Shown one piece after another: positions 44,323 through 50,650 of a DNA stretch of 64,000 bases (position 1 is its first letter; each line of letters begins with the position of its first letter). The DNA comes from Bradyrhizobium sp. WSM3983. Its GTDB lineage: Bacteria; Pseudomonadota; Alphaproteobacteria; Rhizobiales; Xanthobacteraceae. The notes beneath the pieces are model-generated. The model searched no databases, was not told the DNA's origin, and worked only from the letters and a program-made list of their open reading frames with translations. The stretch spans positions 1-64,000 of the forward strand of contig NZ_AXAY01000022.1 of assembly GCF_000473045.1 (NCBI RefSeq), in the 5' to 3' direction. The position numbers and the translations under genes were made by a program.

Positions 44323-44817
44323 TCAGGCTTCGCTTGAGGCGCGGAATGACTTCAAGAGCCGGCTCAACGCCGGGCTCGCAGCGCGGCGAAGTTCTTCAAG
44401 GTTCTTCCGCGAGAGCGCCTGGAGCTTCTGCTCACCCTTCTTCGTCAGCTTGAGATGAACACGCCGGGCGTCGTCGGGGTCGGCAACGCGACTGACCAGC
44501 CCGAGCTTCGCGAGCCGGTTCATCAGCTCAACAGCGGAGTGAGGTCGGATCAGCAGGAACTTGGCGACGTCGCCGACTGTTGCGGGGCCTGGACGGACAA
44601 AACCCTTGATGCCCAACAGCGCCTGATGCTGCGTCGGCGTCAAGCCCTGCTGTGCTGCGGCCGCCTCGCTGAAGGCCAGAAAGTTCCGGATTTGATAGCG
44701 GAATTGCGCCAGCGCGGCATAGTCGGAGTCACGCATCGTGCGGCTATTTGAACGCTGGGCCGGCATCGCCGCCGCGGACCGCCGCGCCTTCTTTGCCTGA
44801 ACCATGCCTTGAACCAT
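44323..44817 (-). CDS. MarR family transcriptional regulator
   Basis: This winged-helix regulator of about 165 residues is convergent with prfA. The core is TVGDVAKFLLIRPHSAVELMNRLAKLGLVSRV plus the wing DPDDARRVHLKLT. The N-terminus is uncertain: two tandem 12-bp copies of atggttcaaggc (44806-44817 region) give starts at 44817 and 44805, and MRDSDYAAL at 44736 is also possible. Linkage to the liv operon at 45798 suggests a regulatory tie, but an alpha-CTD-like gene lies between. Confidence 0.8.
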   Translation of the reverse strand: MVQGMVQAKKARRSAAAMPAQRSNSRTMRDSDYAALAQFRYQIRNFLAFSEAAAAQQGLTPTQHQALLGIKGFVRPGPATVGDVAKFLLIRPHSAVELMNRLAKLGLVSRVADPDDARRVHLKLTKKGEQKLQALSRKNLEELRRAASPALSRLLKSFRASSEA

Positions 44818-44931: not shown

Positions 44932-45579
44932 CTATTCGAAGCTGGACAGCAGGATTTTCACCAGAATGACCTGAAACGCGATCGGGATGCGGACGCTCTT
45001 CCGCCGGATCGATCGCTGCAGCGCACCGGCGATCTCCGCACTGGTCAAGGCGCCGGCCGATGCGTTCGCAATCAGCTCCGCCCACATCTGCGACAGCGAG
45101 CCGCCGGGCGGAAGCACCGGCTTGATGGTCACACCGCAACCCTGCGCCCAGTCGACGATCTCCCGCATCGTATGCGGCCCGCAGTTGCGGGCGGTCGCCA
45201 GGCGCTCGGCGGTCAACACGCGCAGCAGCTCGCGCGAGGGCGACCAAGTCCCCATCGGCGGCTGCTCGCCGGTGAGCTCGACCGCGAGCTCCTTCAGGAC
45301 ATTCTGGGCCCGCACGCTCAGTCTCTTCATCGGCACCGGAGCGCACTTGGCCTGAACGGCGCCGACGGCCGGTCCGCGCTCGCCGGCCGGCCGATTGCGC
45401 GACTCGGGCGTGCGGGAGGCCTCGCCGGACTGCGGCGTCGCGCGCTGGTCGTCGCCCTCCGCGGGCCACGCCACCTCAGGCCGCTCCGCCTGCTGCGGCC
45501 ATGATCGTCGCTTCCGGACACCTGCCACTGTCGCCTGCCGCGCTATCTCTCTCGCCGAACCCGCCGGCCTCGTACTCAC
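44932..45579 (-). CDS. Free-standing RNA polymerase alpha-CTD-like protein
   Basis: This 215-residue product (GTG start at 45579) is divergent from the second liv operon. Residues 84-152 resemble the helix-hairpin-helix of RNA polymerase alpha-subunit C-terminal domains: MKRLSVRAQNVLK matches the alpha-CTD opening (Arg90 and Asn93 at the DNA-contact positions of E. coli R265 and N268), and LATARNCGPHTMREI matches the LLKxRNxGxKSLxEI element. There is no alpha N-terminal (assembly) domain, so it is not RpoA. Residues 1-83 are Arg/Pro/Ala-rich and probably disordered; a later start at Met84 (45330) would keep the domain. Function is unknown; DNA binding is inferred. Confidence 0.65.
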   Translation of the reverse strand: MSTRPAGSAREIARQATVAGVRKRRSWPQQAERPEVAWPAEGDDQRATPQSGEASRTPESRNRPAGERGPAVGAVQAKCAPVPMKRLSVRAQNVLKELAVELTGEQPPMGTWSPSRELLRVLTAERLATARNCGPHTMREIVDWAQGCGVTIKPVLPPGGSLSQMWAELIANASAGALTSAEIAGALQRSIRRKSVRIPIAFQVILVKILLSSFE

Positions 45580-45591
45580 AAAGACTAATAT

Positions 45592-45608
45592 ATATCGTGA
45601 TCCGATAT
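45592..45608. promoter_or_regulatory. Palindrome ATATCG-N5-CGATAT in a divergent promoter
   Basis: A perfect 6+6 bp inverted repeat with spacer tgatc lies 12 bp upstream of the alpha-CTD-like gene start and about 190 bp before the second liv operon. The surrounding 45580-45660 sequence is AT-rich compared with its neighbours. It looks like a dimer-binding operator; the cognate regulator (adjacent MarR, alpha-CTD-like protein or another) is not known. Confidence 0.6.
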
Positions 45609-45797
45609 GTTTTCACGACATAATTTTCGTCGTTCGACCAAAGGCGAAATTGACAGAAGGCCTTCACAAGCAATGCTTACGTCCAAGAGCTACACGCGGA
45701 TGTGACGTGCCCGGCGCGGGCAGGCCTTTAAGGCCGGCCGCCGCCGGACGAGTCGTGTTTTGCCTGCAAACAAGAACGATGTTCGGAGGAAACGACC

Positions 45798-47132
45798 ATG
45801 ACTGACGATCTCATCCGCCGCGGCCTCTCGCGCCGTGGCCTGCTCCAGACCACAGCGGGCCTCATCGGCGGCTCGGTGCTGCCGGCGATGCCGGCGTTTG
45901 CCGAGGACAAGCCCGCGATCGGCTCCTATCCCGCGGGCGTGTCGGGTTCCACCGCCTTCATCGGAATCTCCGTGCCGCGCACCGGCACCTATGCCGTGCA
46001 GGGCGAGGACGAGCTCAAGGGCTACCAGCTTGCGATCGAGCACATCAATGAAGGCCACGAGCTGATCAAGAAGATCTCGCCGAAAACCAGCAAGGGCGTG
46101 CTCGGCAAGGAGCTGAAATTCGGCGTCGCAGATTCCGCGGCCAAGCCGAACGAGGCGGTGCAGGCGCAACAGCGCTTCATCAGCGAGAACAAGGCGATCA
46201 TGATCACCGGCGGCACCTCGAGCGCGGTTGCGGTCGCGCTGAACAAGCTCGCCCAGCGCGAGCACGTGCTGTTCGTGTGCGGCATCTCGGGCTCGAACGA
46301 CACCACCGGCAAGGACTGTGTGCGCTATGGCGTGCGCCAAAACTTCTTCGGCCAGACCGCCGCGGCCGCGATCGGCCCGGTGATGGTGCGGGAGTTCGGC
46401 AAGGGCAAGAAGGCTGCGTATCTCACCCCGGACTACACCTACGGTCACACCGTGACCAAGTCGATGCAGGACTTCCTCGCGAGCGCCGGCTGGACCACCG
46501 TGACCAACCAGGTCGCCCCGCTCGGCGCGCCCGATTATTCCTCGTATCTGCTGAACGTCGCGAACTCCGGCGCCGACGTGCTCATCAACGTCAATTGGGG
46601 CCACGATGCCGTGCTCTCGACCCAGCAGGCCAAGCAGTTCGGCGTGCTCGACAAGATGAAGCTGGTCGTTCCCTACCAGGTGCCTTTCATCGCGCGCGAG
46701 ACCGGCGGCCTGATGCAGGGCGTCTACGCCGCGACCGACTATTGGTGGACGATCGAAGACAAGTTCCCGCTTGCCAAGATGTTCAACGAGGCCTTCGAGA
46801 AGAAGTACGGCTACAAGCCGGAATGGGGCGCCGAGAACGCCTATGTCAGCTTCGCGCACTGGGCCCATATGTGCGAGGAGGCCGGCAGCTTCAATCCGCC
46901 CGACGTGATCAAGGCCTATGAGAAGGGCGAAACGATCCCCTCCCTGGTCGGCGACGTGCATTACCGGCCCGAGGATCACCAGTGCATTCGCCCGGTGATC
47001 GTCGTGAAGGGCAAGCAGCAGAAGGACATGAAGAACAAGGAAGACTGGTACGACGTCGTGGAGATCGTCCCGGGTGAAGGCCTGATGCAGAAGCCGGACG
47101 CGTTCGGCTGCCATCTCGGCGACTACACCTGA
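45798..47132 (+). CDS. ABC transporter substrate-binding protein with Tat signal (second liv operon)
   Basis: This 444-residue type I binding protein has an unusual long signal, SRRGLLQTTAGLIGGSVLPAMPAFA, with twin arginine (residues 10-34). The mature domain starts near TAFIGISVPRTGTYAVQGEDELKGYQLAIEHIN. Later marks are TGGTSSAVAVALNKLAQREHVLFVCGISGSNDTTGKDC and DVLINVNWGHDAVLS. The best-fitting family is branched-chain amino acid or amide binding; the ligand is unknown. A ribosome site GGAGGAAACGACC precedes the ATG. A strong terminator separates it from livH. Confidence 0.9.
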   Translation: MTDDLIRRGLSRRGLLQTTAGLIGGSVLPAMPAFAEDKPAIGSYPAGVSGSTAFIGISVPRTGTYAVQGEDELKGYQLAIEHINEGHELIKKISPKTSKGVLGKELKFGVADSAAKPNEAVQAQQRFISENKAIMITGGTSSAVAVALNKLAQREHVLFVCGISGSNDTTGKDCVRYGVRQNFFGQTAAAAIGPVMVREFGKGKKAAYLTPDYTYGHTVTKSMQDFLASAGWTTVTNQVAPLGAPDYSSYLLNVANSGADVLINVNWGHDAVLSTQQAKQFGVLDKMKLVVPYQVPFIARETGGLMQGVYAATDYWWTIEDKFPLAKMFNEAFEKKYGYKPEWGAENAYVSFAHWAHMCEEAGSFNPPDVIKAYEKGETIPSLVGDVHYRPEDHQCIRPVIVVKGKQQKDMKNKEDWYDVVEIVPGEGLMQKPDAFGCHLGDYT

Positions 47133-47226: not shown

Positions 47227-48102
47227 ATGATTAGTTGGCCCAATCTCGTTTCGCAGCTTTTCAACGGGCTCGCGCTCGGCGCCCTGCTTGCGCTGATCAG
47301 CTCCGGCCTGACCATCATTTACGGCACGCTCGGCGTGCTCAACCTCGCGCATGGCGCGATGTTCATGATCGGCGGCTATGCCGGCTTCGTCACCTACCAG
47401 TACACCGAATCGTTCATCCTCGCCGTCATCGCGGGCTCACTGTTCGTGATGCTGCTCGGCGTCGTGATGGAGCGAACCATCATTCGCCATTTCTATCATC
47501 GCCCGCACGAGGACCAGCTGCTGGTCACCTTCGGGCTCGGCATCTGCTTCGTTGAGATCATCCGGCTGATCTTCTCCAGCCAGTCGCAGCTGGTGCCGCC
47601 GCCAGCGATATTCCAGGGCATCACCAATCTCGGCTTCATGTTCTATCCGACCTACCGCCTCGCCGTGGTCGGCATCGTCGCGATCGCGCTCGGCGCGCTG
47701 TTCATCATCCTCTACCGCACCCGGCTCGGCATGATCGTGCGCGCCGGCATCGAGGATTCGGTGATGGTCGATTCGCTCGGCATCAACGTCTACCGCGTCT
47801 TCATGGTCGTGTTCGGCATCGGCGCAATGGCCGCCGGCTTTGCCGGCATCGTCAACGCGCCGGTGGTCTCGCTGACACCGGGCATCGGTGACGACATCCT
47901 GGTCCAGACCTTCGTGGTGGTGGTGATCGGCGGCGTCGGCTCGTTCCCCGGCGCGATCCTCGGCGGCCTGATCGCCGGCGAGATCATCAGCGTCACCTCC
48001 ATGTTCAACCCCGGCTATGCCTATGTGATGCTGTTTGCGGCGATGACGCTCGTGCTCGTGGTGCGACCGCATGGCCTGCTCGGCGTCCAGGGCCGCGAAT
48101 AA
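47227..48102 (+). CDS. ABC transporter permease, LivH type
   Basis: This 291-residue permease has about eight membrane segments. Diagnostic sequences are SSGLTIIYGTLGVLNLAHGAMFMIGGY and the cytoplasmic loop TRLGMIVRAGIEDSVMVDSLGI. The start is ATG at 47227. It follows the terminator at 47149 and precedes the LivM-LivG fusion by 11 bp, so the permease and ATPase genes form one transcription unit. Confidence 0.92.
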   Translation: MISWPNLVSQLFNGLALGALLALISSGLTIIYGTLGVLNLAHGAMFMIGGYAGFVTYQYTESFILAVIAGSLFVMLLGVVMERTIIRHFYHRPHEDQLLVTFGLGICFVEIIRLIFSSQSQLVPPPAIFQGITNLGFMFYPTYRLAVVGIVAIALGALFIILYRTRLGMIVRAGIEDSVMVDSLGINVYRVFMVVFGIGAMAAGFAGIVNAPVVSLTPGIGDDILVQTFVVVVIGGVGSFPGAILGGLIAGEIISVTSMFNPGYAYVMLFAAMTLVLVVRPHGLLGVQGRE

Positions 48103-48113
48103 GTGAATCCCTG

Positions 48114-49955
48114 ATGCTCAAGCAACGCCCGTTCCTGATCGAGACACTGACGGCCATCGGCCTGATCGTGGCTCCCTTCGTGCTGCCTCATCTCGGCTTC
48201 GCGCCGAACACGGTGAACCGAATCCTGGTCTGGGGTTTATTCGGCCTCGGCTTCGACATCCTGTTCGGCTTCACCGGGCTGCTGTCGTTCGGCCAGTCAG
48301 CCTTCTACGGCACCGGTGGCTTCGTTGCCGCGTACCTCCTGACCCGCGCCGGCTTCAGCAACGTGCTGGGCGCGCTGGTCATCGGCATGATCGCAGCGGC
48401 TGCGACCGGCTATCTGGTCGGCCTGATCGCACTGCGCCGCACCGGCATCTACTTCGCCATGATCACGGTGGCGATCGCGGAAGTGTTCTTCTTCGTCGAG
48501 TTCAATCCGCTCTCCGACTTCACCGGCGGCGAGAACGGCCTGCCGGGCGTGCCGGCCCCGAGCTTCAATCTGGGCTTCACCACCATCCATTTCACCGATG
48601 GCTGGTCGCTCTATCAGTTCATCGCGCTGTGCTATTTCATCGGCGTCATCATCGCGCTGAGGATCGTGCGTTCGCCGGTCGGCGCGATTCTCAGCGCAAT
48701 CCGGGACAATCCGCTGCGTGCCACCGCGGTCGGCCACAACATCCACGGCTACAAGCTGACTGCCTTCGTGATCGCCGCCGCTTACGCGGGCTTTGCCGGC
48801 GGCCTGCTGGGCGTGCTCCAGGCCTTCATGCCACCCGATGCCTTCACCTTCGACACATCCGGCCAGCTCGTGATGCAGACCGCGATTGGCGGCCGAGGCA
48901 CGTTGTTCGGCCCGCTGGTGGGCGCAACCGTCTGGCTCTTCCTGCAGGATTTCCTCCAGTCCGCGCTTGGTCTGGGAGCGGCCTGGAAGCTCGTGCTCGG
49001 CGTGGTGTTCGTGCTGCTGGTCTGCTTCCTCCGCGGCGGTATCGTCGGCGGCCTCGTCGATCTCTATGGCCTCGTCTCCGGCAAGCGGGCCCGGAAGGCT
49101 GCGGAGACGGAGGAGGCTGAGGTCGAAACGCCACAGCAAGCGCCGCCTGCACCAATGCAGGCCAAGCAGGTCGAGCATCCCGCCTATTCCGGACCGATCC
49201 TGAAAGCCACCGGTCTCACCAAGCGCTACGGCGGCCTCGTCGCCAACAGCGACATCGATTTCAGCGTCAATCAGGGCGAGCTGCGCGGCATCATCGGTCC
49301 CAACGGCGCCGGAAAGTCGACCTTTTTCAAGATGCTGACCTGCGAGATCCCGCCAACCTCGGGCCAGATCATGTTCGCGGGACGCGATATCACCGGCTTG
49401 AAGATCACCGAAGTCTGCCAGCTCGGGCTGACCAAGAGCTACCAGGTCAACCAGCTCTTCACTGGTCTCACGGTACGGCAGAACCTGAGGATTGCGGCCC
49501 TCGCGGAATTGCGGGGAAAATTCCGGCTCGACCTGTTCCGCTCGCTCTCCGGCGTCAAGGGTCTGACGGAGCAGGTGGAGCACACGCTGGCGCTGGTCAA
49601 TTTGACCCGCCGCGCCGACACGCCCGTGTCCGAGCTCGCTTATGGCGAGAAGCGCAGGCTGGAGATCGGGCTGGCGCTTGCCACCTCGCCGCGCCTGCTG
49701 CTGCTCGACGAGCCGCTCGCCGGCATGAGCCCGCGCGAGCGGGTCGAGACCGTCAAGCTGCTCAAATCGATCGCGCGCGGCCGCACCATGATCATCATCG
49801 ACCACGACATGGATTCGCTGTTCGAGCTGGTCGAGCGCGTGACGGTGCTGCAGGAGGGCCGCGTGCTGGTCTCCGGCACGCCTGAGGAAATCAAGACCAA
49901 CGCCGCAGTGCAGGAAGCCTATCTCGGCGGCGTGCACGGAGAGATCGCCGCATGA
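48114..49955 (+). CDS. Fused ABC permease (LivM) and ATP-binding protein (LivG)
   Basis: This single 613-residue polypeptide contains two subunits normally separate. Residues 1-320 are a LivM-type permease (FGLGFDILFGFTGLLSFGQSAFYG, AILSAIRDNPLRATAVG). Residues 325-362 are a Glu/Ala/Pro-rich linker. Residues 363-613 are a LivG-type ATPase with Walker A GPNGAGKST, signature-equivalent ELAYGEKRRLEIG, Walker B LLLLDEPLAG and switch IIIDHDMD. The DNA is in one continuous frame, so the fusion is genuine or an extremely clean single-base event. It overlaps livF by 4 bp. Confidence 0.92.
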   Translation: MLKQRPFLIETLTAIGLIVAPFVLPHLGFAPNTVNRILVWGLFGLGFDILFGFTGLLSFGQSAFYGTGGFVAAYLLTRAGFSNVLGALVIGMIAAAATGYLVGLIALRRTGIYFAMITVAIAEVFFFVEFNPLSDFTGGENGLPGVPAPSFNLGFTTIHFTDGWSLYQFIALCYFIGVIIALRIVRSPVGAILSAIRDNPLRATAVGHNIHGYKLTAFVIAAAYAGFAGGLLGVLQAFMPPDAFTFDTSGQLVMQTAIGGRGTLFGPLVGATVWLFLQDFLQSALGLGAAWKLVLGVVFVLLVCFLRGGIVGGLVDLYGLVSGKRARKAAETEEAEVETPQQAPPAPMQAKQVEHPAYSGPILKATGLTKRYGGLVANSDIDFSVNQGELRGIIGPNGAGKSTFFKMLTCEIPPTSGQIMFAGRDITGLKITEVCQLGLTKSYQVNQLFTGLTVRQNLRIAALAELRGKFRLDLFRSLSGVKGLTEQVEHTLALVNLTRRADTPVSELAYGEKRRLEIGLALATSPRLLLLDEPLAGMSPRERVETVKLLKSIARGRTMIIIDHDMDSLFELVERVTVLQEGRVLVSGTPEEIKTNAAVQEAYLGGVHGEIAA

Positions 49956-50650
49956 GTCTCATCGAGGTCAACGGCCTGAACAGCTATTACGGGGACTCCC
50001 ACATCCTGTTCGACGTCGCCATGCATGTCGAACGTCACGAGGTGGTGGCGCTGCTCGGCCGCAACGGCGCCGGCAAGAGCACCACGCTGAAGAGCCTGAT
50101 GGGCGTCGTGACGCCGCGCAGCGGCAGCGTGAAGTTCGACGGCATCGATATCGCCGGCCGCAGGAGTCACAAGATCGCGCAGGCCGGGATGCAGCTCGTG
50201 CACGAGGAGCGGCGCATCTTCGGCAGCCTGTCGGTGGAGGAAAACATCGTCCTCGCCGGCATCACCGCGCCAAAGCACTGGCCGCTCGGGCGCATCTATG
50301 AGATGTTTCCACGACTGAAGGAGCGGCGCGGCAATCGCGGCACCGAGCTCTCCGGCGGCGAGCAGCAGATGCTCGCCATCGCACGGGCGCTGGTGCGCGA
50401 TCCCAAGATCGTGCTGCTGGACGAGCCGTTCGAGGGACTCGCCCCCGTCATCGTTCACGATCTCGTCAAGGCCTGCCGCGAGCTCGCGGCCGCCGGCCAG
50501 ACCATCGTGCTGGTCGAGCAGAATCTTGCGGCAACGCTGGCGCTGGCGACGCGGATCTACATCATCAACAACGGCCACATCGTCCACGAGGGTCCGGCGC
50601 AGGAGCTCAAGGTCCAGCCGGAGCTGCTCCAGCGGTATCTCGGCGTCTAA
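49952..50650 (+). CDS. ABC transporter ATP-binding protein, LivF type
   Basis: This 232-residue ATPase has Walker A GRNGAGKSTT, signature LSGGEQQM, Walker B IVLLDEPFEG and switch VLVEQNL. It is the last gene of the second importer, with a start overlapping the fusion gene stop (ATGA). Its stop is convergent and overlaps the HIT gene end by 4 bp. Confidence 0.92.
   Translation: MSLIEVNGLNSYYGDSHILFDVAMHVERHEVVALLGRNGAGKSTTLKSLMGVVTPRSGSVKFDGIDIAGRRSHKIAQAGMQLVHEERRIFGSLSVEENIVLAGITAPKHWPLGRIYEMFPRLKERRGNRGTELSGGEQQMLAIARALVRDPKIVLLDEPFEGLAPVIVHDLVKACRELAAAGQTIVLVEQNLAATLALATRIYIINNGHIVHEGPAQELKVQPELLQRYLGV

Follow-up and report, generated by a model that had tools for sequence, protein, structure and literature searches.

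A detached protein resembling the RNA polymerase alpha C-terminal domain, a MarR-family regulator and a conserved box beside a liv-type importer of Bradyrhizobium

What could the C-terminal domain of the RNA polymerase alpha subunit (alpha-CTD) do when it is encoded apart from the enzyme? In bacteria, both activators and UP elements use this domain as a main contact to recruit the polymerase. In a stretch of 64,000 nucleotides from Bradyrhizobium sp. WSM3983, hereafter the window, a gene divergent from a liv-type importer (aCTDL, for alpha-CTD-like) encodes a protein that resembles it, with a perfect palindrome just upstream. A sequence-only reading of the locus had drawn attention to the protein and had taken the palindrome as its operator. 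We therefore asked whether the likeness holds, which DNA element accompanies the protein, and what it might do there. The features of the region are collected in Table 1.

Table 1. Features of the aCTDL region (window positions) and of four other free-standing alpha-CTD proteins (positions in their own stretches)
Feature	Position	Strand	Basis or remark
MarR-family regulator gene (marR)	44323..44805	-	directly downstream of aCTDL; start chosen among several
aCTDL	44932..45579	-	215 codons, GTG start; codon 12 is the start in most homologues
Conserved C-terminal helical segment (...SIRRKSVRIPIAFQVILVKILLSSFE)	44935..45117	-	residues 155-215
Alpha-CTD-like helix-hairpin-helix domain	45118..45333	-	residues ~83-154; ~12-residue insert after helix 1
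N-terminal arm, fast-evolving, probably disordered	45334..45579	-	pLDDT ~30
Putative aCTDL-marR promoter GTGAAA-18-TATATT	45587..45616	-	9/12; shuffles mean 0.1
Palindrome ATATCG-N5-CGATAT, read as MarR operator	45592..45608		in spacer of putative aCTDL promoter, touches its -10
Asymmetric conserved box CGACCAAAGGCGAAATTGACA	45635..45655	+	contains putative liv -35 TTGACA (45650-45655)
Tentative liv -10 ATGCTT, 17-bp spacer	45673..45678	+	weak, by eye; absent from promoter scan
Periplasmic substrate-binding protein (SBP), Peripla_BP_6	45798..47132	+	Pfam
livH-type permease	47227..48102	+	gene order, relative's annotation
livM-livG fused permease/ATPase	48114..49955	+	gene order, relative's annotation
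livF-type ATPase	49952..50650	+	gene order, relative's annotation
Free-standing alpha-CTD proteins	L134 6002-6613; L141 2934-3536; L142 5561-6115; L144 5510-5983	-	Pfam

The protein and its likeness to the alpha-CTD

The open reading frame of 215 codons starting at GTG was present as described, together with the residues singled out in it (Arg90, Asn93 and Arg131-Asn-Cys-Gly134, the R-N-x-G segment). Codon 12 (45546-45544) is ATA in the window and ATG in most relatives, and when 28 loci were aligned with the window, three of them, L025, L027 and L028, showed indels between the GTG and this codon. On these grounds the ancestral start was probably the internal ATG, and the window strain may be alone in starting at the GTG; in one annotated relative the start was likewise placed further in. 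Measured from this codon, the palindrome lies 45 bp upstream.

A scan of genome contigs yielded 28 loci encoding aCTDL at 72-90% identity, 27 of them labelled Bradyrhizobium or Bradyrhizobiaceae and one Frankia. Locus L005 (JAUEPE010000014.1), labelled Frankia sp. RB7, carries Bradyrhizobium-like sequence with an SBP 99% identical to that of the window, and its record name looks wrong. The C-terminal 133 residues showed a mean column identity of 94% (28 rows), the domain was 86-96% identical to that of the window over L002-L028, and the N-terminal arm of about 80 residues changes fast. For the conserved part, the median dN was 0.055 and the median dS 0.49, with a dN/dS of 0.11 (120 pairs among 16 chosen sequences); aCTDL is a real protein under purifying selection. 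In the full collection of 101 loci many are redundant, leaving 72 distinct reading frames, and removal of 12 duplicates left the 89 loci on which the counts of gene order given below are based.

The likeness to the alpha-CTD is remote. When the window protein was compared with Pfam (as a 214-residue query), RNA_pol_A_CTD was the sole family found, at 14.4 bits (E 0.032) against a cut-off of 23.8, and no NCBIfam family was matched. The profile check proposed with the sequence-only reading thus had a borderline outcome. The window protein itself fell short; among relatives, gauged by E value, the family was matched by 22 of 23 (best E 6.8e-4) and, with a best E of 3.3e-4, by 16 of 20 diverse members. 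It was also the only Pfam family matched by most members. A profile of 83 aCTDL domains (47 kept by the program), built without the 12 duplicates, the broken or partial copies (L029, L073, L092, L095 and L096) and L076, which the anchor pattern missed, was compared with one of 31 RpoA CTDs. It aligned over 49 columns with a score of 22.3 (E 0.0027, with a probability of only 11%), above the reversed profile (11.3) and above every one of 200 column shuffles (maximum, 19.56); the 35% identity over these columns is that between aCTDL and the CTD of the genome's own RpoA. Pfam gave nothing but RNA_pol_A_CTD in the protein, so the N-terminal assembly domain of RpoA is absent, and the only PF03118 match at E 0.001 in the genome was another frame, of 380 residues, read as rpoA. 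The description of the protein as an alpha-CTD-like helix-hairpin-helix lacking the assembly domain is thereby borne out, at a distance.

The pattern of conserved residues points the same way. As in PF03118, the first helix reads L-S-x-R-A-x-N-x-L-K and an N-x-G turn is followed by T..E-I. Equivalents of R265, N268, L270, K271, N294, G296 and E302 were invariant in all 20 diverse members, and the position of S299 was invariably Thr. Among these, R265 and N268 are named as DNA-contact residues of the alpha-CTD (PMC11434276). Unlike the alpha-CTD of PF03118, aCTDL carries the insert after helix 1 and additional conserved C-terminal helices, to which no family could be assigned (residues 155-215); K298 is not conserved, most members having His, Gln or Arg there, and the acidic 261 position is mostly not kept. 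In E. coli, the 261 determinant contacts sigma, and its loss in aCTDL would speak against a sigma contact made through it.

The structure models were poor: the full-length one could not be used, and an AlphaFold model with six helices was of low confidence (pLDDT 64). With the latter, Foldseek returned nothing at E <=0.001 (best E 0.99). Of the rows listed by VIA-align, four cover nothing but the N-terminal domain (residues 1-73 of the model), and three of these, spanning 50-56 residues, were read as polymerase alpha chains: 8igr_G (Z 4.7, 53 residues, 2.4 A), 9dvt_A (Z 4.1) and 8hvr_K (Z 4.0), all with Z in the chance range for this low-pLDDT model. The entries 8hvr and 9dvt contain polymerase alpha chains, and we read 8igr_G, from a transcription activation complex, as another. 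The fourth row was a DNA-mimic protein (3w1o_A, Z 3.5). Matches of the C-terminal half to Cre and to helical repeats were at chance level and were dismissed, and PDB sequence searches gave chance matches only. Taken together, homology of the domain to the alpha-CTD is likely, not proven.

Other free-standing RNA_pol_A_CTD proteins were found in L134, L141, L142 and L144. These are also short (157-203 aa), come from Pseudomonadota and carry an alpha-CTD domain over the Pfam cut-off, under which the window protein remains, with no other family at cut-off and no PHROGs family at E 0.01. Their stretches contained no match to the aCTDL, MarR or liv queries, no palindrome and no box. L134 reads as prophage-like, lying near genes that look like those for phage packaging. 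A phage origin of aCTDL itself was considered and dismissed (a PHROGs match in 1 of 23 members only, E 0.13); among viral contigs, 16 stretches matched a pattern and no aCTDL relative was confirmed.

A conserved module and its distribution

The gene order around aCTDL was highly conserved. The sequence-only reading had placed a MarR gene merely near aCTDL, which understates the case: in 88 of the 89 loci marR comes directly after aCTDL in the same orientation, and the exception, L090, stops at its contig end. The window MarR carries a MarR_2 domain (48.3 bits against a cut-off of 27, E 1.1e-12). On the other side, the liv-type ABC importer is complete, with its SBP assigned by Pfam and its two permeases and two ATPases by gene order and a relative's annotation. 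As had been noted for the window, aCTDL is divergent from this importer; the SBP gene was so placed in 87 loci (exceptions, L094 and L096), and the full arrangement of aCTDL and then marR, divergent from SBP-livH-livMG-livF, was found in 86.

The module is patchily distributed. aCTDL was present in 49 of 146 Bradyrhizobium genomes and in 6 of 29 genomes of a second genus of Xanthobacteraceae, where the order is also kept, protein identity is 37-45% and prfA was not among the module neighbors in the stretches fetched. A draw across the family gave 9 of 248 genomes, from 2 of 47 genera; in draws across the order (5 of 347) and the phylum (3 of 398), aCTDL was found solely in Bradyrhizobium, with at most 7-8 candidates scored per genome, so that a relative that is rare or distant could have escaped notice. 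An SBP orthologue (at least 80% identity) occurred in 47 of the 146 genomes, every one of which carried aCTDL. The two aCTDL genomes lacking it were G989 (L094), from which the importer is gone in what looks like a deletion, and G994, in which aCTDL is reduced to a remnant. A more distant SBP paralogue was found in six genomes at 48-49% identity; around operons with such a paralogue (47-49% identity) the 11-12 kb fetched contained no aCTDL, MarR of this kind, palindrome or box. MarR itself was matched (E 1e-20) in all 49 aCTDL genomes and in seven others. B. japonicum also carries a copy of the module on its conjugative plasmid pS11L-1, where aCTDL is called a "hypothetical protein". After the plasmid module (L156, NZ_CP126014.1 316130-330771) come another SBP gene and one for a molybdopterin-dependent oxidoreductase, which may hint at the substrate.

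The components differ in their conservation. Identity to the window MarR was 60-89% over L002-L029, with many values at about 60-65 or 80-89, and SBP identity was mostly above 94%, as if marR had been replaced or were evolving fast. In five cases (L029, G1060, G1062, G1006 and G1017) aCTDL was broken by stops or frameshifts beside intact SBP and MarR genes, which suggests that aCTDL may be dispensable, unless the broken copies are assembly errors. Separately, the SBP gene was split across frames or partly missing in L011, G1057 (L054) and G1018 (L079), with aCTDL intact.

Two conserved elements in the divergent region

The perfect palindrome was confirmed 12 bp upstream of the GTG. A scan of 45480-45820 found a single promoter-like site, the putative aCTDL-marR promoter in whose spacer the palindrome lies, and no liv promoter. 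In the 8.79-Mb genome the exact palindrome occurs twice, and the backwards control pattern not at all. Conservation near homologues, suggested as a check, proved complete: the palindrome lies upstream of aCTDL in all 89 loci (72 exact, 14 with one mismatch and 3 with two, out of 12 positions).

The palindrome does not, for all that, behave as an operator belonging to aCTDL. We collected 11 loci with MarR and no aCTDL, 7 from genomes without aCTDL and 4 paralogues in aCTDL genomes. In seven of the 11 (L145, L149 and L151-L155) the palindrome stands immediately before marR with no more than one mismatch; it is missing from L146, L147 and L150, and the sole copy in L148 is far off. The earlier proposal was thus rejected, and because the element is kept at MarR genes whether or not aCTDL is present, it is best read as a site of this MarR, perhaps also of related regulators. 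Nor is it special to the module. Of the 146 Bradyrhizobium genomes, 94 had a perfect copy somewhere, among them 48 of the 49 aCTDL carriers and 46 of the 97 genomes that lack the gene, compared with 7 genomes for the backwards control, so other regulators probably use such a site. Six loci (L087, L088, L090, L091, L100 and L103) have a copy over the importer -10 region and another, sometimes degenerate, toward aCTDL; in L083 both copies are on the aCTDL side. At another locus, L153 (3681-6030), this palindrome accompanies a MarR paralogue that is divergent from a gene resembling, by eye, a CLC-type chloride channel with CBS domains. Sites of this kind may mark out a broader MarR regulon.

The element that accompanies aCTDL was a different one, of which the sequence-only reading made no mention. 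Between the palindrome and the importer lies an asymmetric box, with the consensus CGAC(C/G)AAAG-...-A(A/T)TTGAC on the importer strand and 1.19 bits of information per position, compared with 0.27 upstream and 0.34 downstream (15 chosen loci). It was found at 99 of the 101 aCTDL loci and at none of 55 other sequences, including all 11 MarR-only loci, a count that is descriptive only, since the pattern was drawn from the loci themselves and widened after they had been viewed. The two loci missed by the widened pattern were L008, a one-base variant by eye, and L096, a remnant.

A genome-wide pattern, fixed before the search although some of its source loci came from these very genomes, matched in 57 of the 146 Bradyrhizobium genomes. 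The box was on the locus in 46 of the 49 aCTDL genomes, the exceptions being variants (G978 and G1012) and the remnant of G994. Matches elsewhere in aCTDL genomes were limited to one each in G000, G1062 and G978. Of the 46 genomes, 43 had a single match; G000 and G1062 had their additional one, and G983 has two aCTDL loci. Ten of the 97 genomes without aCTDL had a match somewhere, none with this MarR or the SBP paralogue, and the box read backwards as a control gave 8 matches in 7 genomes. The association gave a Fisher p of 2e-24, a value that ignores relatedness and comes from a pattern drawn from such loci. A strict helical phasing of palindrome and box was rejected, as spacings of 23, 24, 36, 37, 39, 43, 46, 48 and 70 do not fit it. 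At the level of sequence, then, the box goes with aCTDL and the importer, and the palindrome goes with the MarR gene.

The TTGAC of the box stands 17-18 bp before weak -10 candidates, and the box would accordingly reach from about -35 to about -50 in the importer promoter. The polymerase's own alpha-CTD, which binds at UP-element positions, would sit there.

A possible relay and its alternatives

A detached alpha-CTD-like protein, a box that is mostly single per genome and a MarR operator on the protein's own promoter together suggest a relay from MarR through aCTDL to liv. MarR would sense a ligand and, by binding the palindrome, repress aCTDL-marR; at some loci it would also repress the importer core promoter. 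With ligand present, MarR would leave the palindrome and aCTDL would be made. aCTDL would then bind the box at about -35 to -50, in the place where the polymerase's own alpha-CTD would sit, and activate the importer. From the arrangement of these elements we infer both the binding of aCTDL to the box and the repression of aCTDL-marR by MarR through the palindrome. We prefer activation, the weaker inference, to repression: at loci where both promoters carry a palindrome, MarR would shut down the two divergent units together. The broken aCTDL copies beside intact importers speak against the relay, as does the mostly lost 261 position. We hold it a tentative possibility that aCTDL, with its alpha-CTD-like domain and C-terminal helical segment, is a dedicated promoter-specific factor within such a relay; the fuller proposal of an alpha-CTD acting in trans, in which the detached DNA-binding domain of the polymerase serves as a single-target activator read by MarR through a box over the importer -35, is more doubtful.

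In one unlikely alternative, the domain would be a general binder of DNA or RNA, of helix-hairpin-helix type, that only resembles the alpha-CTD, and the box would be simply the conserved promoter of the importer. The sub-threshold Pfam score and the low-confidence structure model would fit this. So would the fact that box, aCTDL and importer are co-inherited, which makes binding of aCTDL to the box inseparable from promoter descent; the box may be merely the -35 region of the importer promoter or a site of another factor. Against it, the alpha-CTD is the sole Pfam family for most members in both samples (22/23 and 16/20), the profile score exceeds all 200 shuffles, and three of the four listed structural rows confined to the domain were read as polymerase alpha chains.

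A slightly less likely reading makes aCTDL a brake, an anti-activator that binds the box, excludes the polymerase's own alpha-CTD and lowers importer transcription, as negative feedback when ligand is plentiful. The box does cover the place of the proximal alpha-CTD, and a domain without the assembly domain could compete for it but could not carry the enzyme. At the six loci with a palindrome over the importer -10 (L087, L088, L090, L091, L100 and L103), however, repression by MarR would fall on importer and brake alike, which is not a coherent scheme. Improbable also, and the least favored of the readings, is a role as partner or co-repressor of MarR, with aCTDL contacting MarR or nearby DNA to stabilize the repressed divergent region instead of acting at the box alone. 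The position of aCTDL directly upstream of marR and co-directional with it (88/89 loci) speaks for such a pairing, and the strongly conserved basic and hydrophobic C-terminal segment could be a partner surface; yet MarR genes without aCTDL keep the palindrome, the palindrome-box spacing varies from 23 to 70, and the identities of MarR (60-89%, L002-L029) and of the aCTDL domain (86-96%, L002-L028) are unlike those of a tight pair.

The relay through aCTDL to the importer remains our preferred, if tentative, reading. It resembles MarR repressors that act on their own promoter and on that of a divergent transporter, in that the palindrome lies over the promoter of marR's own unit; it departs from them in that aCTDL separates the operator from marR and that the importer promoter has a second box. 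Among the open-access papers searched, judged by title and the opening of the abstract, we found none on a stand-alone alpha-CTD regulator, which does not prove absence. In our view a known domain would here be wired into a regulatory role that is new, free-standing alpha-CTD proteins of other context already occurring. If a detached alpha-CTD does work as a one-promoter factor, it would show how parts of the polymerase become regulators, and one protein, a 21-bp box and a MarR switch would offer a simple system in which to test the alpha-CTD without the enzyme.
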